Source: Nitrospinaceae bacterium (GTDB lineage Bacteria > Nitrospinota > Nitrospinia > Nitrospinales > VA-1). Taken from it: a DNA stretch of 46,773 nucleotides. The stretch lies in NCBI GenBank assembly GCA_029261455.1, contig JAJDBH010000230.1, forward strand, positions 1 to 46,773, given 5' to 3'. Positions within the stretch are counted from its first letter, which is position 1, and each line of letters starts with the position of its first letter. Shown one piece after another: positions 25,417 to 43,224 of the stretch. The translations under genes and the position numbers were made by a program. The notes beneath the pieces are model-generated. The model ran no database searches. It worked only from the letters and a program-made list of their open reading frames with translations, and was not told the origin of the DNA.

Positions 25417-28400
25417 TTAAGAGGAAAGATCAAAGATTTGGATTTTGCCTCCATCGGAGTTAGCCACTGCTAATTGATCGTTGAAGATGGAGAGCCCTGT
25501 CACTTTTCCAAGTTGTCCGGCTCTTTTTCCTGGTTTTTGGTAAACGTTCTGGACTTCGAGTTTATTGTTGAAGTGTACGATTTGGCTGTTCCAGAAATCG
25601 GAACCGTAGATGCCATATTTAGGATGCCAGGCCATAAAATAAATATCCTCCACTCCCCACTCGGCTCTATCAACCTTTTGGATCAAGTTGCCCGACACGT
25701 CAAAATGCTTCAGCAAAAATTCTGATTTGTCTCCCACCAGATATTCTCCATTTGGCAGGCAATAGACACTGACGGGTTCCTTTATGTTGAGTTCTTTGCC
25801 TTGCAGGGTTTTTAGGGTTTTGCCCTGATCATTCATAATCCATACTTGGTTATTCTCCGGGTCAGCGATCCAAAGATTGTCCTGGCTATCAATAGAAGGG
25901 CTGTATAATACACCCGATTGTCCCAAACTGAATTGCAAGAGAAACGTTCCTGTTTTACTAAACTTCTTAACGATTCTGTCTCCTTCTTTAACGATATATA
26001 TCGAGCCTTTGCTATCAATGGCTAGATTGCCGGGGTGTTGCAATTTTTCTGGCGCATTGCCCCATCCGCCAAAATAAAATTGAAAATGGCCCAGTGGGGA
26101 ATAGCTGTAGACCCGGTGGTCTTCAGAATTGATAACCAGCAGATCGCCATCCTGATTGTAGTGAATGCCATGAGGGTTCAGGGTATGGCTGATGTCTACA
26201 TCGGCTTTTTCGAAAATCCTGATTTCCTTAAAACCTGTTTTTTCGTAGGTTCTGGAAGGGGACAGTCGGCTGCGAAAATCCGCCAGCCTGTCCAAAATAT
26301 TTTTTATTCTGGAGTTCCTCTGATATTCAAACTCACACCGATCCAGGGCAATATGTGATCGTCTGTGTTCATTTTCAATTCTTGCAGAGTCTGAAATTTT
26401 AGAAATTTCATACTTGGAATTGAGTTCTTTGGCTTGGACAGCCAAGGAAAAGACCTTGAGTATATTTTCCTTACAGGATTTTGAATTTTCGCGGATTTTC
26501 TGGTTCTGTTGAGAATGGTAGTCGTTAAAGACCCCGAAAAATTGTTGAGCCTTCGAGACGTCGTTATCCGTCAGAGATAAAAAAGCACCTGCGAGAACAA
26601 GACGGTGAAGGTTGATCGACTGGTTGATATCCAGGCTCATGATCATTCTGCGAAGCAGATGGATTTGAAATTGTAGAATGGCGATATTATCGTTGATCGT
26701 AATGGGAGAGACTTTATCTTCTACTCGTATTTCTTTCAACTGGATTTCCAAATTAATCTGCTGATGTAACATTTCTTCCAATTGCTGAAAGAGCTCCTGG
26801 GCTTTTCCCTGATAGGTGATTTGGGTTGCCATTAATTTTAAAGTGCTATCAGCGAGCTCTTCTTTATGCTCCGGAAACTCTGGAAACTGGAACTCGTCCT
26901 GTCCCCAGATTAAAGTTTCATTTTCTTTGTTTAAGTGTGAGCCTTCTGCTTTAAGGGTGGTTAGGATGCTGGAAAAGTCAAGGTTCTCGGAGTCATAAGA
27001 AATGGGAGACAGGTCTCCAAGAGTAAGTTCTGTTTTTTGTGTTACCCCACCTGATGCCGGAGTTCTCAATAGGGCATCGAGTGAATTCAGGAACTGCTGT
27101 TCCAGTAGCGGGTAGGTCAACCAGTCTTCATGAAACCCGACCAGAATTTTCAGGATATCCTCAAAGGCGGAAGAATCGCCGGACATTTTTCCTGCGAAAT
27201 TTTCCAGACTGGTATTTGCTGGAGTATTTTCTACAAGTATTCTCAGGTTGAACCAGTGCGATTGCAGTTCAAATTGCAGGTGTGTTTGCAGATCCATGAT
27301 CCTACTGTTGGAATAAAACTGGGTGAGAAAAGCAGAGAGTTTGTCCGTTTCCCCCTGGGATTCCCCCAGTATTTGAACCATGGATTCCTCGCTTTTCTCT
27401 TTCTGCCCGAAATATTCTTTCATGAGGTTCAAGGATTCCCCCGTATGCCTGAGCAGAACCTCGTTCACGTGCGCTAATTGTGTCTTGGACAGATTGCTTT
27501 CAATTAAACTGTGGATAAGCCGGGAAAATTTTTGGACGGTTTCTCTAAAGGAATAGATTTCGTTCCGGGTCAGGCGGTAGAATTTTTTGTCTTCCTGCTC
27601 AGCGATGTGAAGGTCGAGGTTGAAGTCACGAATTCCATCCGGGTCTTTCACAATTTTTCTTTGTTCTTCATGCAAAAGGTCATTAAATTTCAAGGCCACT
27701 TCCTGCCACGACTCAAAGGCTTTTAATAATTCACCTCTGACCTGCCTTAATTGTTCTTCCGCTAATTTGCATGCAAGGTCAAGGGTGTTATCGTTGAGGG
27801 TGACACCTTGTTTTGACAGATGACTGAGTTCAAGCGCGGCATTTATTTTCAGGTCGATTGAAAGAGGAGTTTCATTAGGTGTGTTTTCGTTTAACAGAGC
27901 TAGGGTTTGTTCAATTGCTATCAGGGCTTGGGCGTTGTTATTCCCCTGTTCAAGAGAAAGAGCGTGGTAAAAAATATGAGCGGGATCCGGATTAGGAAGT
28001 GTGCTTAGGGTCTCGGTCAGGGTATTCTGAGAAACTAGTGGAATAAGATATTTGTAAATCTGCGTGTTGAAGGTAAAGCCAATATGCAAACAGCCTTTTA
28101 AATCTATTGCAGCCAGGCAGGGGGCTGCGAAAGTCTGTCCGGAACTTGCTTCGTCAATCGCGAATAAATATTGTCCGAATGGGGAAAACACCTGTACACG
28201 TTCATTATTCAAGTCGGCGACATACAGCAGATCATTTGGGGCTACCGTCACGCAAAGAGGATATTCGAACTGGCCCAGGGCAGATCCTTTTTCCCCGAAC
28301 GACATGATTTCCTGCCACTGGGAGTTGAATTTGCGAACCCGGTGGTTGCCGCTATCGGTAATGAAATAATTTCCCAAGCTGTCTTTAGCAATGGAAGTGG

Positions 28401-28953
28401 GTAATTCAAATAAGGGCGGAGCCAGTAAATTTTTTGGAGTTCTTTGGAGTTCCGCTAATTGCTCTTCTAAAACTGTCCCTCGATCTCCCACCCACCCTAA
28501 TGACACGCCTTGAGGGTCAAAAAACTGAATCCGGTGATTGTAGCGTTCCACTACAACCAGGTTTCCCGAGGGCTCCACCAGGATATCATAGGGCTCGTTC
28601 AATTCTCCTTTGCCATCTCCGCAAGAGCCGAAGGAAAGAAGATGCGTTCCTTTTGAGTCGAATTTTTGTACCCGATGGTTCCAGCTATCGGCGATATAGA
28701 TATTTCCGTCAGGGTCTACCGCGATACCTTTTGGGTATTGAAATTGACCTGGTTCCTTCCCCTTGCTCCCGAAACAATGCAATAGGTTAGATTGAGAATC
28801 GTAGATTTGGACGCGATGGTTGAAATCATCTGAAAGCAGAAGGTGCCCTTCACTTGAGAAACACAGGCCGGAAGGTGGAGACAGTTCTTCGCTGGACGAG
28901 TCTTCAGCTCGATAGGTGCTTTCAAGTTTTATGGAAAACAGGGGAGTTGTCAT
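25417..28953 (-). CDS. Large protein with NHL-repeat propellers at both ends
   Basis: The product has 1178 residues from ATG 28953 (GAGGG ten bases upstream); an in-frame TTG at 29058 would add 35. The N-terminal third (roughly 25-305) has at least five NHL repeats, e.g. PKGIAVDPDGNIYIADSWNH and SIAKDSLGNYFITDSGNHR. The middle 600 residues are mainly helical with coiled-coil-like stretches. The last 270 residues form a second set of NHL repeats (GNLAIDSKGSIYIVKEGD; PSIDSQDNLWIADPENN). NHL propellers bind proteins, RNA or cell-wall ligands. No signal peptide is visible, so location is unclear. It is the last gene of the minus-strand cluster that starts at 43224. Confidence 0.8.
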   Translation of the reverse strand: MTTPLFSIKLESTYRAEDSSSEELSPPSGLCFSSEGHLLLSDDFNHRVQIYDSQSNLLHCFGSKGKEPGQFQYPKGIAVDPDGNIYIADSWNHRVQKFDSKGTHLLSFGSCGDGKGELNEPYDILVEPSGNLVVVERYNHRIQFFDPQGVSLGWVGDRGTVLEEQLAELQRTPKNLLAPPLFELPTSIAKDSLGNYFITDSGNHRVRKFNSQWQEIMSFGEKGSALGQFEYPLCVTVAPNDLLYVADLNNERVQVFSPFGQYLFAIDEASSGQTFAAPCLAAIDLKGCLHIGFTFNTQIYKYLIPLVSQNTLTETLSTLPNPDPAHIFYHALSLEQGNNNAQALIAIEQTLALLNENTPNETPLSIDLKINAALELSHLSKQGVTLNDNTLDLACKLAEEQLRQVRGELLKAFESWQEVALKFNDLLHEEQRKIVKDPDGIRDFNLDLHIAEQEDKKFYRLTRNEIYSFRETVQKFSRLIHSLIESNLSKTQLAHVNEVLLRHTGESLNLMKEYFGQKEKSEESMVQILGESQGETDKLSAFLTQFYSNSRIMDLQTHLQFELQSHWFNLRILVENTPANTSLENFAGKMSGDSSAFEDILKILVGFHEDWLTYPLLEQQFLNSLDALLRTPASGGVTQKTELTLGDLSPISYDSENLDFSSILTTLKAEGSHLNKENETLIWGQDEFQFPEFPEHKEELADSTLKLMATQITYQGKAQELFQQLEEMLHQQINLEIQLKEIRVEDKVSPITINDNIAILQFQIHLLRRMIMSLDINQSINLHRLVLAGAFLSLTDNDVSKAQQFFGVFNDYHSQQNQKIRENSKSCKENILKVFSLAVQAKELNSKYEISKISDSARIENEHRRSHIALDRCEFEYQRNSRIKNILDRLADFRSRLSPSRTYEKTGFKEIRIFEKADVDISHTLNPHGIHYNQDGDLLVINSEDHRVYSYSPLGHFQFYFGGWGNAPEKLQHPGNLAIDSKGSIYIVKEGDRIVKKFSKTGTFLLQFSLGQSGVLYSPSIDSQDNLWIADPENNQVWIMNDQGKTLKTLQGKELNIKEPVSVYCLPNGEYLVGDKSEFLLKHFDVSGNLIQKVDRAEWGVEDIYFMAWHPKYGIYGSDFWNSQIVHFNNKLEVQNVYQKPGKRAGQLGKVTGLSIFNDQLAVANSDGGKIQIFDLSS

Positions 28954-29150
28954 GAACGAGCAAACCCTCAGTTGCGGAGGTTCAGTGCGGGGAAATCCTA
29001 ACAAATTGTCTCGCATTAAATCATAATCTGATTCCGATAACAATAGCCTACATTGCAAGCATAGCTATCTGTTTTTCCGGGGATCAGAGCGGCTTCTTCT
29101 AGAGAAGGAGAGATTGTTGTAGCTTTTACGAAATGCGTCGGTGATATGCT

Positions 29151-30653
29151 TCAGGAATTCATTGCCAGATATTTAGCATAAAGAGCACTGACCAGCTTGG
29201 AAGCGTCAAACTTTTCCCTTCTTGCTGGTATTTGTGACGGGGGATCTATCATGACCAGAAAATAAAGGTAAGCGAAAGCAAGATCATGCTCAAAATGGTA
29301 TTGCACTGCCAGTTCAAAATATTTTCGCGCCTCTGGATAATCCTTTTGATTTAATTCGATTTCACCCAGATGAAAATAGGCCCTGCCTTTGAGAGAGAAA
29401 TCGTGGTGATTTTTCAAGGATTTTAAAAATTCCTGCCGAGCACCACTCCAATTTTTTTCTGTCTTCATATTAGAAGCTAATCTATATATTGTCAGAGGGT
29501 CATCGCCCTTGCTTATTTCGCCAGAGTTTCTGGCCAATGATAAGTCAGCGTAATTTTTGAGGTTTGTAAGAATGCAGTGTTGGCATTGCATTGGCTTGTT
29601 CTCCTTGGGAGAGCAGAAATGCAGGTAACGCAGATATCGTATGGGAAACGAGTTCCAATTTTCTTTGCTGTCAAATCCTTCAATCGATTTCGGGACTTCC
29701 AATAAGCCATTACAAACACCTGCTTTTACAGTGGTAGGGCTTGTGCCTATCAGACTTAACCAGTTGTCGAGATAAGGACAGCTGCTTGCGTCATTAAAAG
29801 ACTTGGTGAATCCTGTTTGTGTTACATCGACTCCTTCACTATTCCATCGATCTAAAACGGCGTTGATCTTGTTTTTAGAGTTTTCAAAATCAGCGAAAAC
29901 AGTTTTCTTGAAATTCCGATGGTCAAAAGAAGTCATGGGGTCAATCGTGATTTCTTGTATGCCGTGTTGCTGGGCGGTGCTTATGAGATCACTCAACTCA
30001 TCCTGGTTGTCCTGACTAACAGTGATGTTGAGGGAGACCTTCGGAAATATGCTATTCATTTCCTTCTTCAAGTGTTCTACCCAATCGACTTTTTCCCAGA
30101 ACTTCTTGATATAGTCGGGGTTTCCAGAGCCGTGCCCCAGGGTTGTATTTCCATCAAATGAAAATGTGAGAATTTTGAGTTCGGCTTTAATAAGGTCGCG
30201 GGTTTTTTCTCGAGTTAAAGGAACACCACTGGTGTAAATGATAGATATCTTGTCTTGTATTTTCCCCAGGAAATTCAACATATGCGGTGACTCAAGGGTT
30301 TCCCCGAGTCCGCAAAAAATCACATAGGAAGAATTTTGAATCCAAGGCATGTAGGAGTCGAATTGTTCCGGGCTCATATGAGAATAATTTTCAAAGAGCC
30401 GGGTTTTACTTGAAAACCCTGTGCAACACATTTGGCAACCGACCCCACATGTATATGAAGGGAAGAAGATTACAAAATCAGGGTCATTTGCTTTGAGATG
30501 ACTCAATGGCAAAGCTTTTCCGTGAACACTGTCCATCAATTTGGCGAGCAAAGGCAATTCGTGTGGATTTTCCTTAAGTAGAAATGCGGCCTTTTCTAGA
30601 TCGTCAGTCAAAACAGAAGAAATGATGCTTTGTTCGAGATTTAAGCTGTGCAT
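29151..30653 (-). CDS. Radical SAM protein with C-terminal TPR (paralogue 1)
   Basis: The 500-residue protein has a helical N-terminal domain (1-60), then Cys69, Cys73 and Cys76 in YTCGVGCQMCCTGF, the radical SAM cluster motif C-x3-C-x2-C with an unusual filling. GLGETLESPHM and SFDGNTTLGHGSG lie further on. A set of extra cysteines (NDASSCPYL, GVCNGLL, HFCSPKENKPMQCQHC) looks like a SPASM/twitch-type auxiliary cluster. The last 100 residues are TPR (KGRAYFHLGEIELNQKDYPEARKYF in two parts). The substrate is unknown; SPASM radical SAM enzymes often modify peptides, but others act on sugars or lipids. Its paralogue lies 52 bp upstream. GGAG precedes the ATG. Confidence 0.82.
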   Translation of the reverse strand: MHSLNLEQSIISSVLTDDLEKAAFLLKENPHELPLLAKLMDSVHGKALPLSHLKANDPDFVIFFPSYTCGVGCQMCCTGFSSKTRLFENYSHMSPEQFDSYMPWIQNSSYVIFCGLGETLESPHMLNFLGKIQDKISIIYTSGVPLTREKTRDLIKAELKILTFSFDGNTTLGHGSGNPDYIKKFWEKVDWVEHLKKEMNSIFPKVSLNITVSQDNQDELSDLISTAQQHGIQEITIDPMTSFDHRNFKKTVFADFENSKNKINAVLDRWNSEGVDVTQTGFTKSFNDASSCPYLDNWLSLIGTSPTTVKAGVCNGLLEVPKSIEGFDSKENWNSFPIRYLRYLHFCSPKENKPMQCQHCILTNLKNYADLSLARNSGEISKGDDPLTIYRLASNMKTEKNWSGARQEFLKSLKNHHDFSLKGRAYFHLGEIELNQKDYPEARKYFELAVQYHFEHDLAFAYLYFLVMIDPPSQIPARREKFDASKLVSALYAKYLAMNS

Positions 30654-30696
30654 TGCACGTGCTCCAATGAAAGGGATATGCCTTCCGGATTTTTTT

Positions 30697-30736
30697 CAAG
30701 AATCATCATTCCTGATTTTCTCCAAGAATCATCATT
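30697..30736. repeat. Short direct duplication at the end of paralogue 2
   Basis: CAAGAATCATCATT occurs at 30697-30710 and again at 30723-30736, an offset of 26 bp. The intervening bases and stop codon mean the first copy lies partly outside the gene. The offset is not a multiple of three, so the duplication changed the C-terminal reading frame and now ends the protein at 30706. Confidence 0.7.
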
Positions 30737-32121
30737 AATAAATAAAGATAGGCAAATGCCAGTTGATGTTCATAATAGTTTTTAACGGTTTGCTGGAACA
30801 ATTCATAAGCTTCTGGGTATTTTTTTTTGCGAACTTTCTGTTCGGCTAGATGGAAATAAGCCCTGCCCTTCCATGTGGGGTCACCGCTTTTATCGATGAT
30901 GGTTTTATAATTTTTTTCGGCCTTTTCCCACTGGTTATTTTTTTTCAACTTCCCGGCTTCCAAATAAAGAGGATAGGCTTCGAAGGTGTTTTGACGAGGC
31001 TGCATTTTCTTGGCAAATTTCAGGGGATGCATCTCCCAGCAGGTATCACATGCTGAAGGTAAAGACTCTGATTCCCCTTGGTCATGCATATGTCGAAAAT
31101 ATCGAAAAGGAAAAGAATTCCAATAGGTATCAGGAGATTCATCTCTGATTTTTATAGGCATCTTGATCGGCCCACAACAAACGGAAGGGTGGTAACGATC
31201 CTCATTAAATGCAAGCATCCTGTCAACAGAGGAGCAGGGTTGCGAGTTCTTTATTTCATTTGCGTTGCCGAACTTGACCTGGAGACCTTTTTTGTTGCCT
31301 CTTTCAATCGATCTATTGATTTTAGTTTGATAATATTTGAAATCTGTAAAAATTGACTTTTTGTATAGATCATCGTTAAGAGGAGTCATAATGCTCAACA
31401 AGAGCAATATGGCATTTTTGGAAAGTGCCAGATCAACCATTTCATCCAGTTGATCCACGTTTTCATTGTTTAAAACCATGTTGATCATGATATGGGGGCG
31501 TTCCACGCCAAGTTCTTTTTTTGTAGCCTGTACCATATCGATCCTGTTTAAAATCGTTTTACTGTACTTTTCACTACCACTTCCATGTCCTGCGCTTGTT
31601 ATTCCGTCAAATGAAAAACAAATGGTTGTTAGATTTGAGTCGATCAGGCGTTTTACTTTTTCTTTGGTTAAAGGGACTCCGCTCGTTGTCAGGGTGGTGG
31701 GTTTCCCTTTAGCTTTTTTGACGAAATCGTAAATGTGCGGACTGTCGAGAGTTTCCCCTGTTCCTACATATACAACAAGACTTGCGGTATCTATCCATGG
31801 GAGAACTTCATCAAACTGTTCAGGGGAAACATATTTGTAATCGTCAAACTTAGAAGTGCGATCCGCAAACCCAGAACTGCACATTTGGCAGCCAATGCCG
31901 CAAGTATAGGAAACAGCAGTGGTTATTTCTTGGGGAAGTTGTGCGGTAAGGTTTTGCAAGGGAAGGGGTTTGTCGATCACTTTTCCCAGTAGTTCAGAAA
32001 TGCCACTCAGTGCACCATCATCCTGCTTCAATAACCTTTTGGCTTGCTCCAGATCATCCACCAAAATGGCTCTCAGGGCTTTGTTTTGCAGGTCAGGCCA
32101 GTCACGTTTCTCAAATTCCAT
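30706..32121 (-). CDS. Radical SAM protein with C-terminal TPR (paralogue 2)
   Basis: The 471-residue protein is a clear paralogue of the gene downstream over its full length, with the same order of modules. It has an N-terminal helical domain (VDDLEQAKRLLKQ), then the 4Fe-4S cysteines 74, 78 and 81 (YTCGIGCQMCSSGF). GTGETLDSPHIYDF, SFDGITSAGHGSG and C-terminal cysteines (PCSSVD, VCCGPI, ACDTCWEMH) follow, and then a TPR tail with KGRAYFHLAEQKVRKKKYPEA. Such pairs of divergent paralogues suggest two substrates or a heteromer. The stop region is a 26-bp short tandem duplication (see the repeat entry). Function is unknown. Confidence 0.82.
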   Translation of the reverse strand: MEFEKRDWPDLQNKALRAILVDDLEQAKRLLKQDDGALSGISELLGKVIDKPLPLQNLTAQLPQEITTAVSYTCGIGCQMCSSGFADRTSKFDDYKYVSPEQFDEVLPWIDTASLVVYVGTGETLDSPHIYDFVKKAKGKPTTLTTSGVPLTKEKVKRLIDSNLTTICFSFDGITSAGHGSGSEKYSKTILNRIDMVQATKKELGVERPHIMINMVLNNENVDQLDEMVDLALSKNAILLLLSIMTPLNDDLYKKSIFTDFKYYQTKINRSIERGNKKGLQVKFGNANEIKNSQPCSSVDRMLAFNEDRYHPSVCCGPIKMPIKIRDESPDTYWNSFPFRYFRHMHDQGESESLPSACDTCWEMHPLKFAKKMQPRQNTFEAYPLYLEAGKLKKNNQWEKAEKNYKTIIDKSGDPTWKGRAYFHLAEQKVRKKKYPEAYELFQQTVKNYYEHQLAFAYLYLLMMILGENQE

Positions 32122-32273
32122 GGCTTAGGTCTTTCTGAGAGTTAATAATAGGGTGTTCTGAGTCACTTCTTCCGTTTCGGTCTTTTCCTCGGACTTCTAA
32201 AGAGTGAGTACCAATACTTCTTTTTTTTCGGTTTTGTAAGCTTGACCTCCCTGGATGGGAAATTAAGCTTTCG

Positions 32274-32683
32274 TCAGCGCTCTTTTAGTTTGTTCTCGAC
32301 TTCCTCAAACTCGACAATTTCAAACGAGCTTTCAGGGGCCAGCTTTTTTTCAACGCCCCCTATTTCCATGTTCACGCAAAAAAAGGTAAGGCCAAAGCTG
32401 GGTTTCTTTTCCCAGTCGGGTGCATGAAATTCAGGGGGCAGGAGGGGTTCTTCGTAGGTGTGAGTCGGTAGCTCCTGCAGACCGCATTCAGGAAGCGGTA
32501 AGCCTTCTTTTTTGACAAGGTAAAATTTTTATCCAGAAAAAGCATGGACAGCCTGGGCAGGGATGTTGAGCTTTGTTCAGGGAGGGACGAAGGGATAAAC
32601 AGGATATATTCTTGCGCGCTCGAAGAAACAGGAGGGTCTAAATCGAAGGCCAATAAAAAGTTTTTTCTGACGAGTGTCGGCAT
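32274..32683 (-). pseudogene. Frameshifted partial copy of the adjacent methyltransferase N-terminal domain
   Basis: A ribosome-binding site (AGGAG) and ATG at 32683 start a frame matching residues 3-60 of the gene upstream (LLAFDLDPPVSSSAQEYILFI versus LLAFDFHIPDPSGTQEDILFI, in parts). At the run of A residues near 32512 one base appears to be missing. In the -1/+2 frame the match continues (GLPLPECGL, THTYEEPLLPPEF, FGLTFFCVNMEI, VEFEEVENKLKER) to a TGA at 32274-32276. It stops where the full gene has residue 138, so the methyltransferase domain is missing. A basic stretch in the same frame (to a stop near 32163) may be a further remnant. It is a broken duplicate. Confidence 0.8.
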
Positions 32684-32776
32684 TAATAAGAACTCCTGAG
32701 TTGTTTTTTCCGGGTAGGCCATTCAGTTTTTTCTAAACCCATGTTCTGATTCTCCCTAACTCTCTATAAATAAAAC

Positions 32777-33868
32777 TTAAACTTTGTTGGCCATGAAAAG
32801 ATAGTCTTCCCGCCGAAACTCATGATAATCCTCATTGCAAAGAAGGGTGTCATAGGCGGCTCTGGTTACGCCAAATACGTTTCCGTCAAAGTTGGCGCGG
32901 GAATAATCGTGGAGAGCGATGACTCCGCCGGGAACCAGATAGCGAGACCATAAGGTTATATCTTTATAGCACTGCTCATAGGAGTGATCTCCGTCAATAA
33001 AGAGGAGGCGAATTCTTTTATCCCTTCTCTCTTCCCAGTCCCGTACTCCATCTTCTGAGTTGATCTGATTGAAAACTATCCAATCTTCAACCTGGTTTTT
33101 CTTGAAATAATTTTCCTTTAAAGGGTATTGCTTGGGGTCGAAGGTATAAACTTTTTCTCTATTCTCTTTTTTTGAGCCCTTGCTGAGAATGATCGATGAG
33201 CCGCCAAGGAAATTTCCGATATTTACAATGGCTCCTTCAGCAGGTCCGTAACGTCCCAGATTAAACAGTTTACTTCTTTCTCCATGGCTCAACAAGGTCA
33301 GCGGTAAAAAAAGAGATTCCTCATCAAACTCCCACTTTGCTGACCATGCTTCCATGTCACGGTGAGTCAACTTCCAAACTCGAAAATTCTTGTCGATCAC
33401 ATAGGAATCTTCTTTTAATCCGGAATTTTCCAGAAAGTCGAGAATGTTTCCATAACGGTCTTTTAATTTATCTTCCACTTTTTCATATTCGACTTCCTCG
33501 ACCGAAGCATCGGGTTTGTCCATTTTCATGGACACTTTTATTTCCATATTCACGCAGAAAAATACCAGGCCGAACTTGCTTTCCAGGGATTGTGTTTTCC
33601 ATGCCTGAACATTGAATTCGGGAGGAAGATGTGGTTCGTTGTAGGTTTGAATTTGTATGTTTTGTAAGTCGTGTTCTGGAAAGGGGGCACCTTTCTTCTT
33701 TAAAAGAGTGATTTTTTTGTCCGGATATAGTTTTGTCAATCTGGATAGGGAAACTTCACTTTGATCAGGAGGGCTTGAATGGATGAACAGGATATCCTCC
33801 TGCGTCCCGGAGGGATCGGGAATGTGGAAATCGAAGGCCAATAAAAGGCTTTTACTGGGGATGGGCAT
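32777..33868 (-). CDS. Class I methyltransferase with unusual N-terminal domain
   Basis: The 363-residue protein has a strong ribosome-binding site (AAGGAGG). Residues 1-110 are an alpha/beta domain whose EDILFIHSSPPDQSEVSLS-RLTKLYPDKKITLLKKKG pattern resembles the first Rossmann half of GT9/GT-B glycosyltransferases; this is tentative. Residues about 205-350 are a Methyltransf_24-type domain: GAIVNIGNFLGGSSIILSKG (motif I), a VYTFDPKQY acidic strand, and LLFIDGDHSYEQC with IDGDH at 291-295. Members are found in glycan and antibiotic clusters and often methylate sugars. It lies 18 bp downstream of a GT2 gene. The N-terminal domain was duplicated next door. Confidence 0.78.
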   Translation of the reverse strand: MPIPSKSLLLAFDFHIPDPSGTQEDILFIHSSPPDQSEVSLSRLTKLYPDKKITLLKKKGAPFPEHDLQNIQIQTYNEPHLPPEFNVQAWKTQSLESKFGLVFFCVNMEIKVSMKMDKPDASVEEVEYEKVEDKLKDRYGNILDFLENSGLKEDSYVIDKNFRVWKLTHRDMEAWSAKWEFDEESLFLPLTLLSHGERSKLFNLGRYGPAEGAIVNIGNFLGGSSIILSKGSKKENREKVYTFDPKQYPLKENYFKKNQVEDWIVFNQINSEDGVRDWEERRDKRIRLLFIDGDHSYEQCYKDITLWSRYLVPGGVIALHDYSRANFDGNVFGVTRAAYDTLLCNEDYHEFRREDYLFMANKV

Positions 33869-33886
33869 AAAAAACCTCCTTAGATT

Positions 33887-35212: not shown

Positions 35213-35269
35213 GGATTCGCTCGAAAAATCGTTTTCTTTTGAAAGTATCTGGTAGTGCGGTTTTTTTTC

Positions 35270-36784
35270 TTAGATCGACTTATTGTTTCTTTTGGCAAAT
35301 AAAAACAACTGGTAGTCTAACGGAAATCCGAACAGTTTATGTTCCCAGCGAAATTTGGCTATTCTGGCAAATAACTGATAGGCCCATACAAAGATGAGTT
35401 TCTTAACGGGATTTTTAATTCTTCCTTTTGCCCAAAGAATTGTGTCCGTATCGAGGAACATGAATATATAACTCGATATCATCGAAACCATGCGGGCCTG
35501 TTTGGAGGTGACCCAGGGTGTTTGTTTGTCGTAGAGTTTCATGTGAGCCCAGCCTTCCAGTTGTTTGGGTTCCTGGAATCCGAGCTCGACGGCGGTGTCA
35601 TATAATGGAGTGCCGGGATAGGGCATGTATATAAACATCTGCCCTCGGTTGCGGCTATCATAAGAGAGAAACTTGTCTAGCATGTTGATGGTAGAGCTGA
35701 TCTGTCCGTTTGTTTTTTCTGTCAATTCCTTATGTGTATGGTTCAGCATGGGAATGCCTACAAGAGTAGAAAAGATGACCTTGATGCCGTATTGGCGGCA
35801 CTTTTCCGCAAACTTGTAATTGTCTTCGACATCCATATCCTTATCAATAACATCCAGAGACTCCTGATCACCGGACTCGGCTCCACACAAAATGCTATAG
35901 GTTTTGGAATCTCGTAAAAGCTCCCAAAGCTCGTCATCGGCTTCTGCCAATTGTTTTGCACGTCCATCGAGGTTGCCGAGCCTGATGGTTAATCCTCGGT
36001 CAATGATGCCTTTCAGGATAGCTTTTGCTCGTTTAATATTCACAAAAAACAGACTGTCGTACAGGTTGACTCCGTTGACGTTATAAGTGTTCTGTAATTT
36101 TTCAAGATCGTCCAGAACCGCTTCAGGGTTCAACCCGACCCATCTCCTGTCGTTAACAGTGACTTCGCTACAGAATGCACACCGGTAGGGGCACCCGTAA
36201 CTTGAAACGTAGTTGATTGTCCGGGTTGCAAACTCTGTGACAACAACACATTTTTCTATATCGACGAGATGATATGGAAGTGGTGGCCAGTCGTCAATCG
36301 ACTCCAGTTCTCTGTTCGGATTGATATGTGTTTGTCCGTTTTCTTTCCAGAGCACTCCGGGGATGCCCTCATAGTTTTCACCTTTTTCAATTCGCTTGAC
36401 GACATCATAGAGAGCTCTTGCGCCCTGCCCTTTGATGACAATGTCTATGTAGGGGTTTTCCAGAACCTGCTCAGGGTGAACTGAAGGATGCCAGCCGCCC
36501 CATATTATTTTTATATCCTTATTGGCTTCCTTGGCAATTTTACTGGCCTTGATGCCCCCCTCTATCTGCAGGCCTGTCATGGCGGTTATTCCTAAAACCA
36601 GGCTATTTTTGGCAGACTCACGTATTTCCTCGTATGGATCGTCATAGAGGTTTTCAGCGATGATATTTATAGGGTAACCATCCTTGTCAAGAAATCGGGA
36701 TACGCAAATCAGGGGGATAGGAAGATCGACGGGCTTGTAATAGGGGTCGGGTCTTGGATTGAATAACAGGATCGATTTTTTCAT
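35270..36784 (-). CDS. B12-binding-domain-type radical SAM protein
   Basis: The 504-residue protein has an N-terminal alpha/beta domain (1-150) of the cobalamin-binding type (GITAMTGLQIEGGIKAS, IIWGGWHPSVHPEQVLENP, IDIVIKGQGARAL), though the cobalt-ligating DxHxxG motif is not seen. The radical SAM domain follows with Cys198, Cys202 and Cys205 (YGCPYRCAFCSE). The C-terminal region (430-504) has a hydrophobic segment. This is the architecture of BchE/HpnJ-like enzymes and many uncharacterised methyltransferases or cyclases. Absence of DxHxxG hints that cobalamin may be bound base-off differently or not at all. The substrate is unknown. Confidence 0.83.
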   Translation of the reverse strand: MKKSILLFNPRPDPYYKPVDLPIPLICVSRFLDKDGYPINIIAENLYDDPYEEIRESAKNSLVLGITAMTGLQIEGGIKASKIAKEANKDIKIIWGGWHPSVHPEQVLENPYIDIVIKGQGARALYDVVKRIEKGENYEGIPGVLWKENGQTHINPNRELESIDDWPPLPYHLVDIEKCVVVTEFATRTINYVSSYGCPYRCAFCSEVTVNDRRWVGLNPEAVLDDLEKLQNTYNVNGVNLYDSLFFVNIKRAKAILKGIIDRGLTIRLGNLDGRAKQLAEADDELWELLRDSKTYSILCGAESGDQESLDVIDKDMDVEDNYKFAEKCRQYGIKVIFSTLVGIPMLNHTHKELTEKTNGQISSTINMLDKFLSYDSRNRGQMFIYMPYPGTPLYDTAVELGFQEPKQLEGWAHMKLYDKQTPWVTSKQARMVSMISSYIFMFLDTDTILWAKGRIKNPVKKLIFVWAYQLFARIAKFRWEHKLFGFPLDYQLFLFAKRNNKSI

Positions 36785-36989
36785 AAACTTTCAGTAAGAA
36801 TATTGACCATTGGATGGGCCATCAGGTTATTAGCAACCCTGAATTCTTAGCGGTTTTTCCCTTTGAAACCTTAAACGGGTGGTATTTATGCAACTGATCA
36901 AGCGTTTCCAAAAGCTTGAATTGGACTCATAATTATAGTCCAAAATGCCTTTTTTGGGATGGAGAATATGCTTAAAATCAAATCTCTTC
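36785..36989. other. Gap between the small exported protein gene and the B12-type radical SAM gene
   Basis: This 205-bp AT-rich spacer holds no convincing gene or terminator. An out-of-register frame runs through it on the minus strand but overlaps the exported protein gene in the wrong frame. Confidence 0.5.
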
Positions 36990-37334
36990 TTAATGGCCAG
37001 GGTCTGCTTGTGAGATCGCCCCAGATAAATGTGAATTAATACTCTGAGTATCCAGCTCGTTCTCCTTTTGTGTTTTCGAGGGTATCTCCACTTCAGGAGC
37101 AATAGTTGTCGATTTGGCGTCGGTTGGTAAGTGGTCGTATTCGGGAGAAGCTGTTGAGAAGGCTCCCGATAAATGCGAGGTTGGGTTGTCAATTTCCTGT
37201 TGCAGCTCGGCATTCTCCTGCGCCGTGGCTATGGATCCGTAACCCTGTAACAGAATTGTTCCATAAATGTTGATAAAAAAACAAAGCAATGCCAAACCTA
37301 ATAGGGCTGTAAAATGAGTGCAAATATTTTTCAT
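36990..37334 (-). CDS. Small exported protein with repeated SHLSGA motif
   Basis: The 114-residue protein has AGGAGG before its ATG and a signal peptide (hydrophobic core FTALLGLALLCFFINIYGT; likely cleavage after ATA near residue 38). The mature part is short, polar and low in predicted structure. The octapeptide SHLSGAFS (53-60) is repeated at 101-108 as SHLSGAIS, and the protein ends six residues later. I know no family for it. It lies between the secreted beta-sandwich genes and the radical SAM gene, in the same direction. A short exported or leader-type peptide with a repeated core is compatible with a modified substrate, but the signal peptide also fits a structural component. Confidence 0.65.
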   Translation of the reverse strand: MKNICTHFTALLGLALLCFFINIYGTILLQGYGSIATAQENAELQQEIDNPTSHLSGAFSTASPEYDHLPTDAKSTTIAPEVEIPSKTQKENELDTQSINSHLSGAISQADPGH

Positions 37335-37419
37335 GTCAACACCTCCTGTTTATTTCTTATTTTTAACAAAAATACTTATGGTAGAGGAATAAGATGTAGT
37401 TTGAAATCTAAAGGTAGAT

Positions 37420-37450
37420 GCTCTCCACCCCATGGTTCGGGGTAGAGAGC
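37420..37450 (-). terminator. Hairpin downstream of the triplicated genes
   Basis: GCTCTCCACCCC (37420-37431) and GGGGTAGAGAGC (37439-37450) form a 12-bp stem with one mismatch and a 7-base loop. It lies 21 bp past the stop at 37471 of the last beta-sandwich gene. The T-tract on the minus strand is weak (ATCTACCTTTAG), so it may attenuate rather than fully stop. Confidence 0.55.
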
Positions 37451-37470
37451 ACCGTTGCTTGTTTAACCTT

Positions 37471-38058
37471 TTATGGCACAACTTGTATGGCAAACCAGGT
37501 GTTGTTGCCGGCAATAACACTTGTGGTTATTCCCGAATCCTGATCCGCATGCAACCTGATTATTTGTCCTTGGGAGACGTTCATTACGGCAGAGTGAACG
37601 GACTGCCCCATCACGTAGGATGGGGCCTTTTTATTTGCCGTTAGTGCTCTCCCTAAAGGTGCGAACTGATTGTCTGTTTTTGTGTATAGAAAACGTGACC
37701 CTGAGTTGGTGTTAGCACTCCAAAGCACGGACCCGGAAACCCGGACCTTGGTAACCCCGGCAGGGATGACAAAATAGTTGTTCGAACCAGAATGAAAATT
37801 GTTCGTATCATACTCTTCTGTATTCCACCCCAGGGCCGTATCTGAAAGATGCCCTACATTTTCATTTGAGGTTGACCCTATCAATGCCCCCTGGAAGGCG
37901 GTTGCGGTACTGGTCAGTCCGGGAAGGGAGAACGCGGTGGTTGCAGACCATTGCATGACAGAAATGGCAACGGCCAGGCTGAAAATGAGAAAGGGTCTTC
38001 TTAAAGAAGCTGGTATGTTTGACTTGTTTTCAAAACAAGTAGGATTTGCATGATTCAT
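37471..38058 (-). CDS. Secreted C1q/TNF-like beta-sandwich protein, copy 1
   Basis: The 195-residue protein has a basic N terminus and a signal peptide or signal anchor (about 18-44, FLIFSLAVAISVMQW). The rest fits a jelly-roll domain: FQGALIGSTS, LGWNTEEYDTNNFHSG, a FVIPAGVTKVRVSGSVLWSAN strand pair (in parts), MGQSVHSAVM and WFAIQVVP at the C terminus. This resembles C1q-like and phage/adhesin-type trimeric domains that mediate binding. No catalytic residues are seen. It is the downstream member of three tandem copies; AAGGAGA precedes the ATG. GTs next to it suggest an envelope or matrix role. Confidence 0.7.
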   Translation of the reverse strand: MNHANPTCFENKSNIPASLRRPFLIFSLAVAISVMQWSATTAFSLPGLTSTATAFQGALIGSTSNENVGHLSDTALGWNTEEYDTNNFHSGSNNYFVIPAGVTKVRVSGSVLWSANTNSGSRFLYTKTDNQFAPLGRALTANKKAPSYVMGQSVHSAVMNVSQGQIIRLHADQDSGITTSVIAGNNTWFAIQVVP

Positions 38059-38162
38059 TTAATTTTCTCCTTAATTAAAATTAATTCACAAGGAATTGCT
38101 GCTTGTAGCCTCTGTGTGTAGATTTTTTATGGCAAAGCAACAACATCTCCTTTGCTTTTTAG

Positions 38163-38750
38163 TTATGGCACAACTTCAATGGCAAACCAGGTGTTATTAC
38201 CTGCGATAATACTTGTGGTATATCCCGAAGTCTGATCCGCATGCAATCTGATAAACTGGCCTGGGGAGACGGTCATTACAGCAGAGTGAACGGATTGCCC
38301 CATTTCATAGGGTGCGGCCTTTGTATCTGCCTTTAGAGCTCTCCCTCGAGGTGCAAATGACCCGCCTGTTTTTGTGTATAGATAGCGTGAACCTCTGTTG
38401 ACGTTAGCACTCCAAAGCACGGACCCGGAAACCCGGACCTTGGTAACCCCGGCAGGAATGATAAAAAATTCGTTCCCTCCAGAATGAAAATTGTCCGTGT
38501 CATACACTTCCGTCTGCCAGGACAAAGCCTGATCGGAAAGGCTTCCTATGTTCTGATTCGCACTTTTCCCCACTAAGGCACCTCTGAAAGCGGATGCGAT
38601 ACTGGTGAATCCGGGAATGAAAAACGCGGCTGTCCCAGCCCAGTTAACAACTGAAATGGCAACGGCCAGGCTGAAGATGAGAAAGGATCTTCTTAAAGAA
38701 GATGGAATGGACGACTTGTTTTCAAAATAAGTAGGATTTATATGAGTCAT
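38163..38750 (-). CDS. Secreted C1q/TNF-like beta-sandwich protein, copy 2
   Basis: This is the middle copy, 195 residues, same start and stop spacing as its neighbours. The signal region reads LAVAISVVNWAGTAAF, and the domain shows WQTEVYDTDNFHSGG, FIIPAGVTKVRVSG and GRALKADTKAA. It is the most diverged of the three in the loops (for example GNEFF in place of SNNYF) while the strands and C terminus (GNNTWFAIEVVP) are conserved, the pattern expected of functional divergence under constraint. It has its own ribosome-binding site (AAGGAGA) after a 104-bp spacer; no promoter is obvious between copies, so co-transcription from upstream is likely. Confidence 0.7.
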   Translation of the reverse strand: MTHINPTYFENKSSIPSSLRRSFLIFSLAVAISVVNWAGTAAFFIPGFTSIASAFRGALVGKSANQNIGSLSDQALSWQTEVYDTDNFHSGGNEFFIIPAGVTKVRVSGSVLWSANVNRGSRYLYTKTGGSFAPRGRALKADTKAAPYEMGQSVHSAVMTVSPGQFIRLHADQTSGYTTSIIAGNNTWFAIEVVP

Positions 38751-38854
38751 TTAAATATCTCCTTAATTAAAATTTATTCATAAGGAATTGTTGCTTGTAG
38801 CCTGTGTGTGCAGATTTTTTATGGCAAAGCAAAAACTTTTCCTTTGCTTTTTAG

Positions 38855-39442
38855 TTATGGCAGAACTTCAATGGCAAACCAGGTGTTGTTGCCTGCGATA
38901 ACACTTGTGGTTGTTCCCGAAGTCTGATCCGCGTGGAGTCTGATTTGTTGCCCTGGGAAGACGTTCATTACGGCAGAGTGAACGGATTGCCCCATCACAA
39001 AGGCCCCGGTTTTTGTGTTTGCCGATAGAGCTCTCCCTTGAGGCGCAAATGCACCGCCTGTTTTAGTGTATAGATAACGTGACCCTGAGTTGGTGTTATC
39101 GCTCCAAAGCACGGACCCGGAAACCCGGACTTTAAAGACCCCGGCTGGGATGGTAAAGTAGTTGTTGGATCCACCATGAAAACTGTTCGTGTCATATGCT
39201 TCAATATTCCACCATATAGCCGTATCTGAAAGATTCCCTACACTTTGGTTGGTATTTGTCCCGACCAATGCGCCCTGGAAGGCGGATGCGATACTGGTCA
39301 GTCCGGGAAGGGAGAACGCGGTGGTTGCAGACCATTGCATGACAGAAATGGCAGCTGCCAAGCTGAAAATGAGAAAGGATCTTCTTAAAGAAGCTGGAAT
39401 GGATGGTTTGATTTCTAAACAAGTAGGATTTGAATAGGTCAT
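38855..39442 (-). CDS. Secreted C1q/TNF-like beta-sandwich protein, copy 3
   Basis: This is the first-transcribed copy, 195 residues. The signal region LAAAISVMQWSATTAF is nearly the same as in copy 1, and the domain contains WWNIEAYDTNSFHGGS, FTIPAGVFKVRVSG and WFAIEVLP. AGGAGG lies four bases before the ATG. A good promoter (39515-39543) lies upstream. Fold assignment to C1q/TNF-like jelly rolls rests on the pattern of IPAGV, YDT and terminal WFAI, which I have seen in secreted and phage-associated beta-sandwich proteins. The ligand is unknown. Confidence 0.7.
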   Translation of the reverse strand: MTYSNPTCLEIKPSIPASLRRSFLIFSLAAAISVMQWSATTAFSLPGLTSIASAFQGALVGTNTNQSVGNLSDTAIWWNIEAYDTNSFHGGSNNYFTIPAGVFKVRVSGSVLWSDNTNSGSRYLYTKTGGAFAPQGRALSANTKTGAFVMGQSVHSAVMNVFPGQQIRLHADQTSGTTTSVIAGNNTWFAIEVLP

Positions 39443-39825
39443 TTGGCCTCCTAATTTCGGTTAGTTTATAAACGTCATCTATTATATCGATTATCCAATT
39501 TATCCTGTTGGCGAAATTTAATCCCTATTCCATGTCTTGTCAAATATTTTTTACGACGTTGTTGAATAATCGATGGTTATGCTATTTGTGTGGGTTATTT
39601 GGCCGTAATGGCCGGGCGTATTGGTTGCGGTTGAAGACAGGTATGTAGTTCAAGGTGTGGGAACTTTAAGGGCCCTGTTTGGTAAAGTGAACTTTTTTTA
39701 AAATATTTCTATAGCTTAATATTTGTTTTTGGGGAAAAGTTCCCCATAGCATAATCTGAGTTTGTATGGCTTTTCCAAAAGGGGGTAATTTGTAAAACTG
39801 GCGTATCTGAGGAGGGGAGTTTTGT
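39443..39825. promoter_or_regulatory. 383-bp spacer with promoter for the beta-sandwich genes
   Basis: On the minus strand TTGACA (39538-39543) and TAAATT (39515-39520) are 17 bp apart, giving a transcript start near 39508 and a 65-base leader before the ATG at 39442. A perfect TATAAT on the minus strand at 39481-39486 is an alternative -10. Near the other end there is a 6-bp hairpin (39731-39736 with 39740-39745) without a T-run on the minus strand. No gene is visible in this spacer. Confidence 0.5.
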
Positions 39826-42800
39826 TCAATCAGTGATAATAAGTTTTTCGATTTGTTCGTCGGGTGCTGAACGTTTTGTTTGAATCTGGCAACGCCGGGT
39901 GAGCATTTGCGGTAACATTTTTAACGCATCCCATTTGCTTTTTAAAAGTACTTGCCCTTGCCCGCGATAGGTGAAATATTTGATATCTGCAAATTGATGC
40001 TTCCATATGGAAAACAGGTATTTGAAATACAAGCTGAGGGAATAGTTTTTGATGAAGACCCAGATGTCGTTGCGTTTACATAAATAGACGTATTTGTCGC
40101 TATACAGGCCTACCGTGGCGGTGCCAATGTGGTAAACCTTGGCCTTTGGCAGGTAAACGGCTTTGAGTCCCTTTAACTGTCCCCTCATATTTAGGTCGAC
40201 ATCTTCCGCGAAGATAAAGAAGTCTTCATCGAAAAGGCCTATTTGATTGAAGAATTCGCGCCGATAAATTCCGGCTCCGGCACAGGCGCCAAAAACATAA
40301 TCTTCCTCTTCATACTGGCCGGTGTCTTTTTCCCCTTGTCCTCTGCCGCCACCTGCAGACCAGCTATGAAACAGGTCGCCCGTATTATAAAAAACATCGC
40401 GGTTATCCAGAAACATCATTTTTGTGGTGCCCATTCCGCATTCTGGATGGCGCTCCATGCCTTCATAAAGTTCCTTCAGCCAGTCGCAGGTTACTTCGAT
40501 ATCATTATTGAGCAATACAATATATTCCGCGTTGGAGGCTTTGATCCCTTCATTACAGGCAATGGCAAACCCCATATTGTCGGGCATTTTCAGCAGTCTC
40601 ACCCAGGGGTATTGTTCCTCGATCATTTCGCGTGAGCCATCAATCGAACCATTATCGACCACTATGACTTCATGGCCATCGAAATCAAGCTGAGCAAGAG
40701 AGTCGAGGCACATGCCAACAAATTTCATTCCATTCCAATTGGGGACTACAATGCTGACTTTCAAGGGGTGACCTTTCTTAAAATTAGGGTTCGCTTCCAC
40801 CTTTTCGGTGTTTTCTCCTGACTCCTGAAGGGTGGGCCTCATAACTTTTGCCGTTTTAGTTATATTTTCCATTAAATCTTTTGCACCTTGATGGTAAGGC
40901 TGTTGCTTAAGACATTGTTGTAAAAGTTGGGTTTGTTGGTTTTGGGGAGCTAATAAAGCCATTCTGAACCAGGCATTGGCCTGTATGTGGGGATAGCCTC
41001 GATTGGATACAGCCAGTTCCTCAAATAAATTATAAGCCTCAGACGGATTACCGGATTTTTCCAGGGCAGAGGCGATTGCATAACGCATAATTCCATTTTC
41101 TGGATCTTTTTGCAGGTAAAATTTAAGAGTTTCGTGCTCGGGTCTCAGGTTGGATTCCAGTTGGGCAAGACTGTTAATGACCAAAGTTTGTAACCATTCA
41201 CGGTCTTTTGTGTTCTTGATATCCCTGGCTTCGTCGTATAGTCTTTTAAGGCCATCCCGGTTGTTTAAATTTAGCATGCATTCCGTGGAGAATTTCCAGC
41301 AATCTTGCCAATTGAGTCCTTGGCGGCGAACTTCTTCAAATCTTATCAGGGCTCCTGCATAATCTTTTTTGAGCCTTAAAAATAATGCATATGAAAAGGT
41401 GACTTCCAAATCAGGGTTGAAACGTTTTATTTCTTCCTCCAGTAAGGTCTGGGCCTCATCCAGCTTATTCAGTTTGACTTTAAGGGTGTGCAATTTTAAA
41501 CGTGTTTTAGGCCAATGGGGAGCATATTTCAGGACTTTTTCGAATGCATTTTCTGCCTTCTCGGTGAGCTCCAATGCATTATAAATGTTGCCCATATAAT
41601 CATAAGCTTCGGTGTCTTGTTTGTTCAGTTTGACAAGCTTTTTGCACTCCTTGAGGGCTGTGATTAGTTCTCCCCTTTCCTCATCAGAACGATTCAACCC
41701 CGGAGCATGCCAGTCTGCCTTAGTGAGAGATTCCAATTGGCGCATTTTTTCCTGCCAGCTTTGGGAAAGCAGATTTTCTGAACGAGACTCAATAGACTCC
41801 AAACGATAAACTGGGAACCGGGCCAGCACAACTTTTAACAGTTTGTAACGCAGGCCAGTGACTTCCTCCAAACGTTCCACATCTAGATCAGTAAAGCTTT
41901 TGATCAGGTAGCGAGGTTTGTGGTGCAAAAGTCCGCCTATGAAACTGTCGTAAAAGCCTTCTAGGTCGAGGGAATCCCAAGGGCCGATGGTGTGATGCAG
42001 GAAGTTGTCGGAAGCGGGTGAACCCGTCAAATGATAAAGCTGTGAAAAAGTCCCCCAGACAAAAATTCTTTCGCCGCTTTCACCACGCATACGCATCAGG
42101 CGTTTGAGAATTTTCCCCAGCCGGGGCAAGTAAAGGTATTGGTCGAATTTTTCGTAATGAACCAGGGTTTCAGGATCTGTAGGACGAAGATAATAAAAGG
42201 CCATGGATTTTAAATTCCAACCCAGCAAAGCTGCAAAACTGATCAAAATCATCCCTGATATTGAGGGCTTCAAAGGTAATACGGCTTCCATTCCCAAACC
42301 ACAACCTAATGTAAGTAGAGCAAATAATGGTAGGTAGTGGTATCTGGAAAAGGCTCGCTGAAAAACGATCATGCTGAACAGAGTCAGGGAAAAAACGACC
42401 AGCCAGATGTTTTGATTCTGTATACAATAAATTATGAGAGGGATGAGACCCAGCCAGATCGGAAGAGCCTGTTTGATAAGTTTTCCAACTTCAAGCAAGA
42501 CGCTGAAGTGCATTTTTTTGGTTCGGGTCAATCTTAAAGTAGTGGCCATCCGGGTTTTTAATTGTTTGCGTGATAAGTCGTCCCAATAGCCCATCTTCCA
42601 TTCGATCAGGTTGGAAACGGTCATCACTCCTCCCGAAGCCAGTGCAAACTGGACGGAGGCTAGTCCTCCAAACTCAAACCAGACCATAGGGGTCAAGACT
42701 CCCGCAAAAAGGGCGGTGGTGCATTTACCGATAGAAGCGAGGCCAAAACAAAGTCCTGCGGCGATCACCCACTCGGGTCCTGCTTGCAACAACCCCAGTC

Positions 42801-43224
42801 CGAAAAAAATAAATGGAATATAAAATTGCTCAAAATTGAAAGAGCCTGCCGTAAGATCGGGAGAAGTGCCGTAAAAGGAATAAAGCAATGCTCCGGTGAA
42901 ACTGGCCCAGGGGTTATGGGTAAAGCTCCATAAGGCTCCATAAATAGCCAGCGAACCAAGAAGGTGGAAGGCCGTTTGCAAATGACGGATGCGTTGAATA
43001 CCTCCCTCGACAGAGCCATAGAGTTTGTCCAGCAAGAGCATTTTCCACATGGGAATGCCAATGAGTTGCAGATCTTTTTTCCACTGGAATCCTTGTGACG
43101 CAAAACGAGCTCGGTAAGTGTAGATGGCAAAGTCATCATCCAGAGGGAAGTTCTGAAATGGCCTGCGACACAAAATTGCAGACAGGGAAACGATGACTAA
43201 AAATATGGGGGTTAAGAGGTCCAT
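39826..43224 (-). CDS. Three-module membrane glycosyltransferase: GT-C-like, TPR, GT2
   Basis: The 1132-residue protein starts with a polytopic domain (about 1-360) with an early acidic site (FPLDDDFAIYTYRARF) as in GT-C enzymes of the ArnT/PMT kind. A soluble part (about 380-470) with a typical post-membrane IFVWGTFSQLYHLTG strand comes next. A TPR array (about 510-800) follows, e.g. EAYDYMGNIYNALELTEKAE. The C-terminal GT2 domain begins at 822 (VSIVVPNWNG, VVDNGSIDGS) with LLNNDIEV near 905 and a DEDFFIFAEDVDLNMR region as in rhamnosyltransferases. GT-C enzymes use lipid-linked sugars outside the membrane while GT2 acts inside, so one chain may couple both steps. It is the first gene of the minus-strand cluster. 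Confidence 0.82.
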   Translation of the reverse strand: MDLLTPIFLVIVSLSAILCRRPFQNFPLDDDFAIYTYRARFASQGFQWKKDLQLIGIPMWKMLLLDKLYGSVEGGIQRIRHLQTAFHLLGSLAIYGALWSFTHNPWASFTGALLYSFYGTSPDLTAGSFNFEQFYIPFIFFGLGLLQAGPEWVIAAGLCFGLASIGKCTTALFAGVLTPMVWFEFGGLASVQFALASGGVMTVSNLIEWKMGYWDDLSRKQLKTRMATTLRLTRTKKMHFSVLLEVGKLIKQALPIWLGLIPLIIYCIQNQNIWLVVFSLTLFSMIVFQRAFSRYHYLPLFALLTLGCGLGMEAVLPLKPSISGMILISFAALLGWNLKSMAFYYLRPTDPETLVHYEKFDQYLYLPRLGKILKRLMRMRGESGERIFVWGTFSQLYHLTGSPASDNFLHHTIGPWDSLDLEGFYDSFIGGLLHHKPRYLIKSFTDLDVERLEEVTGLRYKLLKVVLARFPVYRLESIESRSENLLSQSWQEKMRQLESLTKADWHAPGLNRSDEERGELITALKECKKLVKLNKQDTEAYDYMGNIYNALELTEKAENAFEKVLKYAPHWPKTRLKLHTLKVKLNKLDEAQTLLEEEIKRFNPDLEVTFSYALFLRLKKDYAGALIRFEEVRRQGLNWQDCWKFSTECMLNLNNRDGLKRLYDEARDIKNTKDREWLQTLVINSLAQLESNLRPEHETLKFYLQKDPENGIMRYAIASALEKSGNPSEAYNLFEELAVSNRGYPHIQANAWFRMALLAPQNQQTQLLQQCLKQQPYHQGAKDLMENITKTAKVMRPTLQESGENTEKVEANPNFKKGHPLKVSIVVPNWNGMKFVGMCLDSLAQLDFDGHEVIVVDNGSIDGSREMIEEQYPWVRLLKMPDNMGFAIACNEGIKASNAEYIVLLNNDIEVTCDWLKELYEGMERHPECGMGTTKMMFLDNRDVFYNTGDLFHSWSAGGGRGQGEKDTGQYEEEDYVFGACAGAGIYRREFFNQIGLFDEDFFIFAEDVDLNMRGQLKGLKAVYLPKAKVYHIGTATVGLYSDKYVYLCKRNDIWVFIKNYSLSLYFKYLFSIWKHQFADIKYFTYRGQGQVLLKSKWDALKMLPQMLTRRCQIQTKRSAPDEQIEKLIITD

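Follow-up and report, generated by a model that had tools for sequence, protein, structure and literature searches.

The locus described here, a run of genes between prfB and a speE-like gene in a Nitrospinaceae bacterium, is in our view a locus for the assembly and decoration of a glycan, in which a constant frame of genes encloses a swappable slot of tailoring enzymes (probability roughly 0.6); it looks like a system that diversifies the cell surface. The window, which is the whole stretch of DNA analysed (contig C230, 46,773 nucleotides), belongs to a 3.5-Mb draft genome, a Nitrospina-like metagenome-assembled genome. Reading of the open reading frames (ORFs) of the window placed eleven intact genes, all on the minus strand, between two plus-strand border genes: prfB, encoding release factor 2 (RF2), on the right (43498-44617; recognised from its ORFs and from the conserved flank in relatives), and the spermidine-synthase-like gene speE on the left (24482-25405; recognised from a profile match and the neighbourhood in relatives). 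An earlier note on this DNA had listed these genes as lying on one strand, and all of them are indeed open, on the minus strand and in the order given there. Conservation of their protein sequences in relatives shows that these are real genes and not chance ORFs, and Pfam and NCBIfam searches confirmed the presence of NHL, radical S-adenosylmethionine (SAM), B12-binding, family 2 glycosyltransferase (GT2), tetratricopeptide repeat (TPR) and Methyltransf_24 domains. The two frame genes are a fusion of a GT-C-like membrane region, a TPR region and a GT2 domain on the prfB side (39826-43224; PF00535, 84.1 bits, plus TPR) and a two-ended NHL protein on the speE side (25417-29058; PF01436, E = 2.2e-46), which has full-length homologues through the order.

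Relatives are labelled below by genome (G000, G003 and so on) and by genus (g1, g6, g7 and g8). The frame order prfB-[GT-C/TPR-GT2]-slot-NHL-speE was found in genera g1, g6, g7, g8 and others; g7 and g8 have separate GT-C/TPR and GT2 genes in place of the fusion, followed by the NHL gene. Of the 39 genomes having this GT2, 29 carry the GT2 and NHL genes on a single contig and no more than about 15 kb apart, as read from match positions; contig ends cut the linkage in six further genomes, and the two genes are apart in four (G025, G029, G038 and G047). Because of the relatedness of these genomes the counts do not represent independent events, and the linkage draws its weight from its spread over two or more families and not from the raw counts. 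Outside the class, the distribution was sampled in only a few tens of genomes, which bears on any restriction of the locus to Nitrospinota.

The content of the slot differs from genome to genome. Between the GT fusion and the NHL gene, G007 has a radical SAM-TPR gene, G003 has radical SAM-TPR 1, G015 and G008 have a SPASM/twitch radical SAM gene (388-392 amino acids) and a radical SAM-TPR gene, G010 has a B12-binding radical SAM gene and a methyltransferase gene, and G002, G020 and G033 have the B12-binding radical SAM gene; the slot of G030 holds a B12-binding radical SAM gene, a SPASM radical SAM gene, a GT2-TPR gene and two methyltransferase genes. Two features of replacement flexible genomic islands are thus found here, namely the fixed address (the same prfB and speE borders in different genera) and the variable content (different among G000, G003, G004, G007, G010 and G015). 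Across relatives the slot kinds are twitch radical SAM-TPR, B12-binding radical SAM and other radical SAM enzymes, methyltransferases (TylF-like and Methyltransf_24), GT2 enzymes including GT2-TPR, and exported beta-sandwich proteins, and more distant loci hold a PIG-L deacetylase, a hexapeptide acyltransferase and a sulfotransferase (that of G039 sits between speE and the NHL gene, that is, on the outer side of the latter). It is mainly because this inventory is the set of a surface-glycan pathway that a glycan pathway with variable tailoring appears quite probable to us; its product, its acceptor and the partner of the TPR tail described below are what we infer. The proposal of the earlier note that the genes form a single pathway building the cell surface was accordingly borne out in its conserved ends, in a genuine common tail and in this inventory, but the 18-kb set as a whole is not one conserved unit. 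Independent occurrence of the genes in close relatives, which that note had named as evidence to the contrary, was seen for some slot genes (radical SAM-TPR lies elsewhere in G010 and G035) and not for the frame.

Some slots in relatives have peculiarities of their own. In G004 (L124:11819-13180), an opposite-strand gene for a membrane protein of unknown family lies inside the slot beside a SPASM radical SAM gene. In G002 (L096), the NHL gene is represented by two overlapping ORFs and the GT fusion is split too, and the B12-binding radical SAM gene of G012 (L119) has an in-frame TAG; these could be either sequencing errors or signs of decaying slots.

In the window, two neighbouring slot genes, radical SAM-TPR 1 (29151-30653) and radical SAM-TPR 2 (30706-32121), encode proteins that are 36% identical, each with a twitch-type core and a C-terminal TPR tail; PF04055 is matched at 45.4 bits by the second and is sub-threshold in the first. 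The best match of radical SAM-TPR 2 in a named record is from Nitrospina sp. SI073_bin146 (67% identity). Among 15 homologues, the CX3CX2C motif (C74, C78 and C81) and four further cysteines (C296, C315, C358 and C361) are invariant, without the full seven-cysteine SPASM set. The AlphaFold2 (AF2) model of radical SAM-TPR 2 (mean predicted local distance difference test, pLDDT, 88.6) has a partial barrel with a C-terminal twitch fold, and Foldseek matched it best to SkfB (E = 1.2e-10), then to BlsE and also to DesII, with modest TM-scores of 0.45-0.64. The seven invariant cysteines and these structural neighbours indicate twitch-type enzymes that hold a single auxiliary cluster. The spacing of the auxiliary cysteines presumably agrees with that in BtrN. 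Membership in the maturase families TIGR04317 and TIGR04311 was rejected (83.0 and 66.4 bits against cut-offs of 380 and 400). The proteins share the CX3CX2C motif, the four C-terminal cysteines and the SkfB-like fold with the twitch enzymes BtrN, MoaA and SkfB (PMC6231123, PMC9012708) but differ from them in the N-terminal helical region and the TPR tail, and they reach no curated family. By analogy, BtrN, which oxidises an aminocyclitol (PMC9012708), may be taken as the closest chemical precedent for sugars and SkfB as the precedent for peptides; for this group, sequence clusters are an unreliable guide to function (PMC6231123).

The tail is a C-terminal region of 85 residues (29244-29495 in radical SAM-TPR 1, 127 bits to the tail profile; 30724-30975 in radical SAM-TPR 2, 128 bits), with Y5, K12, G38, F42, H43, E46, A57, H71 and L81 invariant in the radical SAM-TPR family, which exceeds the needs of a generic TPR. 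A related tail (33914-34150) ends the GT2-TPR enzyme of the slot (33887-35212; PF00535, 70.8 bits), as the earlier note had noticed: a profile built from the radical SAM tails alone and run on the whole genome ranked it third, with 49.1 bits (E = 1.8e-12). Generic TPR similarity as the source of the common motif was rejected, since the next unrelated match and everything below it scored at most 20.9 bits; the TPR region in the GT fusion is of another kind, at 11.7 bits. In a search of 80 genomes, generic TPR proteins started at about 31 bits, and the frames read for matches above about 31.5 bits all belonged to radical SAM or glycosyltransferase proteins, the carriers being radical SAM-TPR, GT2-TPR, GT-C/TPR relatives in sister families (G055, G073 and G074 being assigned to these from partial sequence only) and a 955-amino-acid fusion in G038 (L122:9842-12709). 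This last protein joins a radical SAM region (B12-type by similarity), a TPR tail and a GT2 domain and therefore ties radical SAM chemistry and sugar transfer together; the B12-binding radical SAM protein of G037 (601 amino acids) likewise ends in TPR. A TPR domain on a glycosyltransferase is also known from FlmG, which glycosylates flagellins and whose TPR was shown to bind the acceptor protein (PMC7591256), although FlmG is of the GT-B type and has its TPR at the N terminus, whereas the tail here is C-terminal and is also found on radical SAM enzymes. Common docking of the slot enzymes through the tail has, we consider, a little under an even chance of being correct.

The B12-binding radical SAM enzyme (35270-36784) matches PF02310 and PF04055 above the Pfam cut-offs (50.1 and 51.3 bits). 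Its orthologues were found in 11 of the searched genomes, that of the window included, with 86-97% identity; they were seen only at this locus, adjoining the GT fusion or the NHL gene in 11 of 11. Compared with g6, the identity is 88% at the protein level and 43% at fourfold sites, near the 33-36% of neighbouring housekeeping genes; the gene is therefore old and constrained. Recent horizontal spread was for the same reason rejected as the cause of the high identity, purifying selection being the main one. The enzyme resembles HpnJ and BchE in having both domains, but its scores lie far below the curated cut-offs (98.3 and 101.7 bits against 577.6 and 481.35), and membership in either equivalog family was rejected. 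The remaining intact enzyme of the slot is a methyltransferase of the Methyltransf_24 kind (32777-33868; PF13578, 69.4 bits).

As for the frame, the GT2 and TPR domains of the fusion that the earlier note had proposed stand, and the GT-C part is only probable. This part gave no Pfam match above threshold, and a profile search of PDB gave no match either; the Foldseek matches shown for it are helical-repeat proteins, mostly TPR. Only a distant relative has a sub-threshold PMT_2 match (20.9 bits, the cut-off being 26.1). The N-terminal half of the fusion is hydrophobic, and D29/D31 are invariant in its first loop, where most homologues read DDD. The NHL protein has N- and C-terminal propellers joined by a long helical middle; comparison with relatives suggests a true start at the ATG near 28953, giving 1,178 amino acids. 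It has no hydrophobic segment and is presumably cytosolic; no signal peptide or transmembrane segment was found in ten homologues. In G025, a radical SAM-TPR gene adjoins the NHL gene although the GT genes lie elsewhere, and the chief hint of cooperation between the two proteins lies here, with the NHL protein as a possible scaffold; that it is the docking partner of the tail seems to us fairly unlikely. In that locus (L041, G025:C22, 6736-16153), two ORFs that appear sulfatase-like when read by eye and a type I phosphodiesterase gene (PF01663) precede the radical SAM-TPR and NHL genes, and the ORF order in G029 (L050) is similar.

If the locus does assemble and decorate a glycan, cytosolic GT2 enzymes would add sugars, which methyltransferases would cap; by analogy with BtrN, BlsE and DesII, the twitch radical SAM enzymes would oxidise or epimerise a sugar or a sugar-linked group, while the B12-binding radical SAM enzyme may add a methyl group or rearrange carbon. 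At the outer face of the inner membrane, transfer of the product or of a lipid-linked sugar would be the task of the GT-C-like domain. The tail would dock the radical SAM and GT2 enzymes on a common partner, either the acceptor or an NHL scaffold, and swaps of slot genes would alter the surface. A more specific version, in which one type of TPR tail was fitted onto twitch radical SAM, B12-binding radical SAM, GT2 and sister-lineage GT-C/TPR proteins so that they plug into one scaffold or acceptor, possibly the NHL protein, and single-gene swaps change the product chemistry, is in our judgement rather doubtful.

Several observations weigh against a glycan locus. Within it there is no gene for a flippase, a polymerase, nucleotide-sugar synthesis or a ligase, and it is therefore not self-contained; the glycan acceptor is a putative one. 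The GT-C label is weak and its model mediocre (pLDDT 74.6), G010, G035 and G059 have their radical SAM-TPR gene apart from the NHL gene, and the Foldseek neighbours of the radical SAM enzyme include peptide maturases besides sugar enzymes. As a separate observation, in G059, which is from another family of the class, the radical SAM-TPR gene is divergent beside a GT-C/TPR gene that matches PMT_2 below threshold, without an NHL gene (L042:2339-6933).

The absence of polymer export genes would also be expected if the locus tailored a membrane glycolipid, building a modified lipid head group (for instance of the hopanoid or cyclitol type) in place of a glycan linked to protein or envelope. Among curated families, the B12-binding radical SAM enzyme comes closest to lipid- or ring-forming enzymes such as BchE and HpnJ, though well short of every cut-off, which points the same way; its conservation, similar to that of phosphoenolpyruvate carboxykinase (PEPCK), fits a conserved small substrate. 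No hopanoid gene was found in the locus, however, and the sulfotransferase, deacetylase and acyltransferase together with the recurrent swapping of slot genes fit a variable surface glycan better, so that we regard a glycolipid product as unlikely. The radical SAM enzymes could instead mature exported proteins, the twitch enzymes modifying the beta-sandwich proteins of the slot or a small peptide, since the closest solved fold is that of the peptide maturase SkfB and exported paralogues lie within the slot. Yet almost all genomes with radical SAM-TPR are without beta-sandwich genes, these proteins are a folded domain common to phage proteins and not a precursor peptide, and nothing lies between the GT fusion, radical SAM-TPR and NHL genes of G007 and G003, where a search of ORFs of at least 70 amino acids gave no small precursor such as a RiPP pathway has beside its maturase; maturation is thus improbable. 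That a recombination-prone prfB-speE spot simply gathers genes of no common pathway, as the visible exchange and replacement and the slot genes found elsewhere (G010 and G035) might suggest, is the least probable of all, because different genera retain the frame, the slot is limited to a narrow set of enzyme kinds, and the tail is specific to slot enzymes, two of which are joined in one fusion.

Signs of exchange within the slot, possibly by homologous recombination, come from one genome pair, the window and G004. The segment 32276-36874, with the methyltransferase, GT2-TPR and B12-binding radical SAM genes, is 93% identical to G004 at the nucleotide level (mostly 92-98% per 300-bp step; 93-95% for the block of these three genes), against 86% for the segment 23267-30578; for single genes, the methyltransferase gene is 94% identical and the NHL gene 84.5%. 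At fourfold sites, GT2-TPR reaches 95% identity and the methyltransferase 88%, whereas NHL, radical SAM-TPR 1 and speE stay at 66-69%. At this point G004 carries two methyltransferase genes and no radical SAM-TPR 2. In the window, the second methyltransferase, missed in the earlier note, is an N-terminal remnant (32276-32775, minus strand) that matches the 5' portion of an intact G004 gene in alignment (L048:7461-8591), has an internal frame change and is truncated at the start of the radical SAM-TPR 2 segment; one slot gene was therefore overwritten by another. A recent transfer of radical SAM-TPR 2 from G007 was rejected (fourfold identity of 37%, not above the 39% of prfB). Bordering the segment that G004 lacks, 2.1 copies of a 26-bp tandem repeat (30683-30736; 89% match) extend across the stop codon of radical SAM-TPR 2 and the space ahead of radical SAM-TPR 1.

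The replacement flexible genomic islands that serve surface glycosylation in aquatic prokaryotes were described within species, where whole clusters are exchanged (PMC4033161). The present locus is similar in having different genes of similar function at the same address and signs of exchange between lineages. It differs in that the frame persists across genera and single slot enzymes are swapped, that radical SAM enzymes dominate and that a docking-like tail is shared. We found no paper on this gene combination in the literature, and a comparative paper on genomes of Nitrospinota, the most abundant known marine nitrite oxidisers (PMC10839748), is silent on glycosyltransferases, surface structures and radical SAM enzymes. 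A family-wide, radical SAM-rich locus would offer an entry to the surface chemistry of Nitrospinota, to recognition by phages or grazers and to radical SAM reactions on sugars, and the shared tail raises a directly testable question, namely what its binding partner is.

The other genes of the slot encode exported proteins. Three paralogues of 195 amino acids, copy 1 (37471-38058), copy 2 (38163-38750; 73% identical in amino acids to copy 1) and copy 3 (38855-39442; 77% to copy 1), are 72-77% identical to each other with a spacing of 692 bp, and all match phage proteins in PHROG and PDB. Their beta-sandwich of 140 residues matches residues 455-590 of PDB 9eul (E = 7.2e-14), and other staphylococcal phage proteins also match. 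The domain is thus like that of the Staphylococcus phage ORF58/GP-PDE domain protein (PDB 9eul, 9euf), but here it is a stand-alone exported bacterial protein, without a phosphodiesterase domain and with no phage genes nearby. As slot genes they occur only in the window genome and in G004 (several copies); the other carriers in the relatives searched are a 278-amino-acid collagen-like protein of G038 and a 1,192-amino-acid surface-type protein of G008. The earlier suggestion that these proteins are acceptors found no support, because they are missing in nearly all frame-bearing relatives and their fold recurs in unrelated exported and phage proteins; they are accessory to the locus. In G038 (L112:7323-9909), a gene for an exported kelch-propeller protein is followed by that of the collagen-like protein, which ends in the same beta-sandwich. 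The fourth exported protein of the window (36990-37334; 114 amino acids) has a repeated HLSGA motif and a hydrophobic segment (Kyte-Doolittle value of 2.30 at residue 11). It has a copy in G004 (74% identical) and gave no family match in Pfam and further profile searches.

At the right border, prfB contains the classic programmed +1 frameshift site of RF2 at 43498-43575 (AGGAGG, a short spacer and CTT TGA C), the zero-frame ORF beginning at the ATG at 43498 and the gene continuing in the +1 frame. Outside the cluster, the window has another radical SAM gene (17539-18627) with a CofH/MqnC C-terminal region, which perhaps belongs to the futalosine route to menaquinone.

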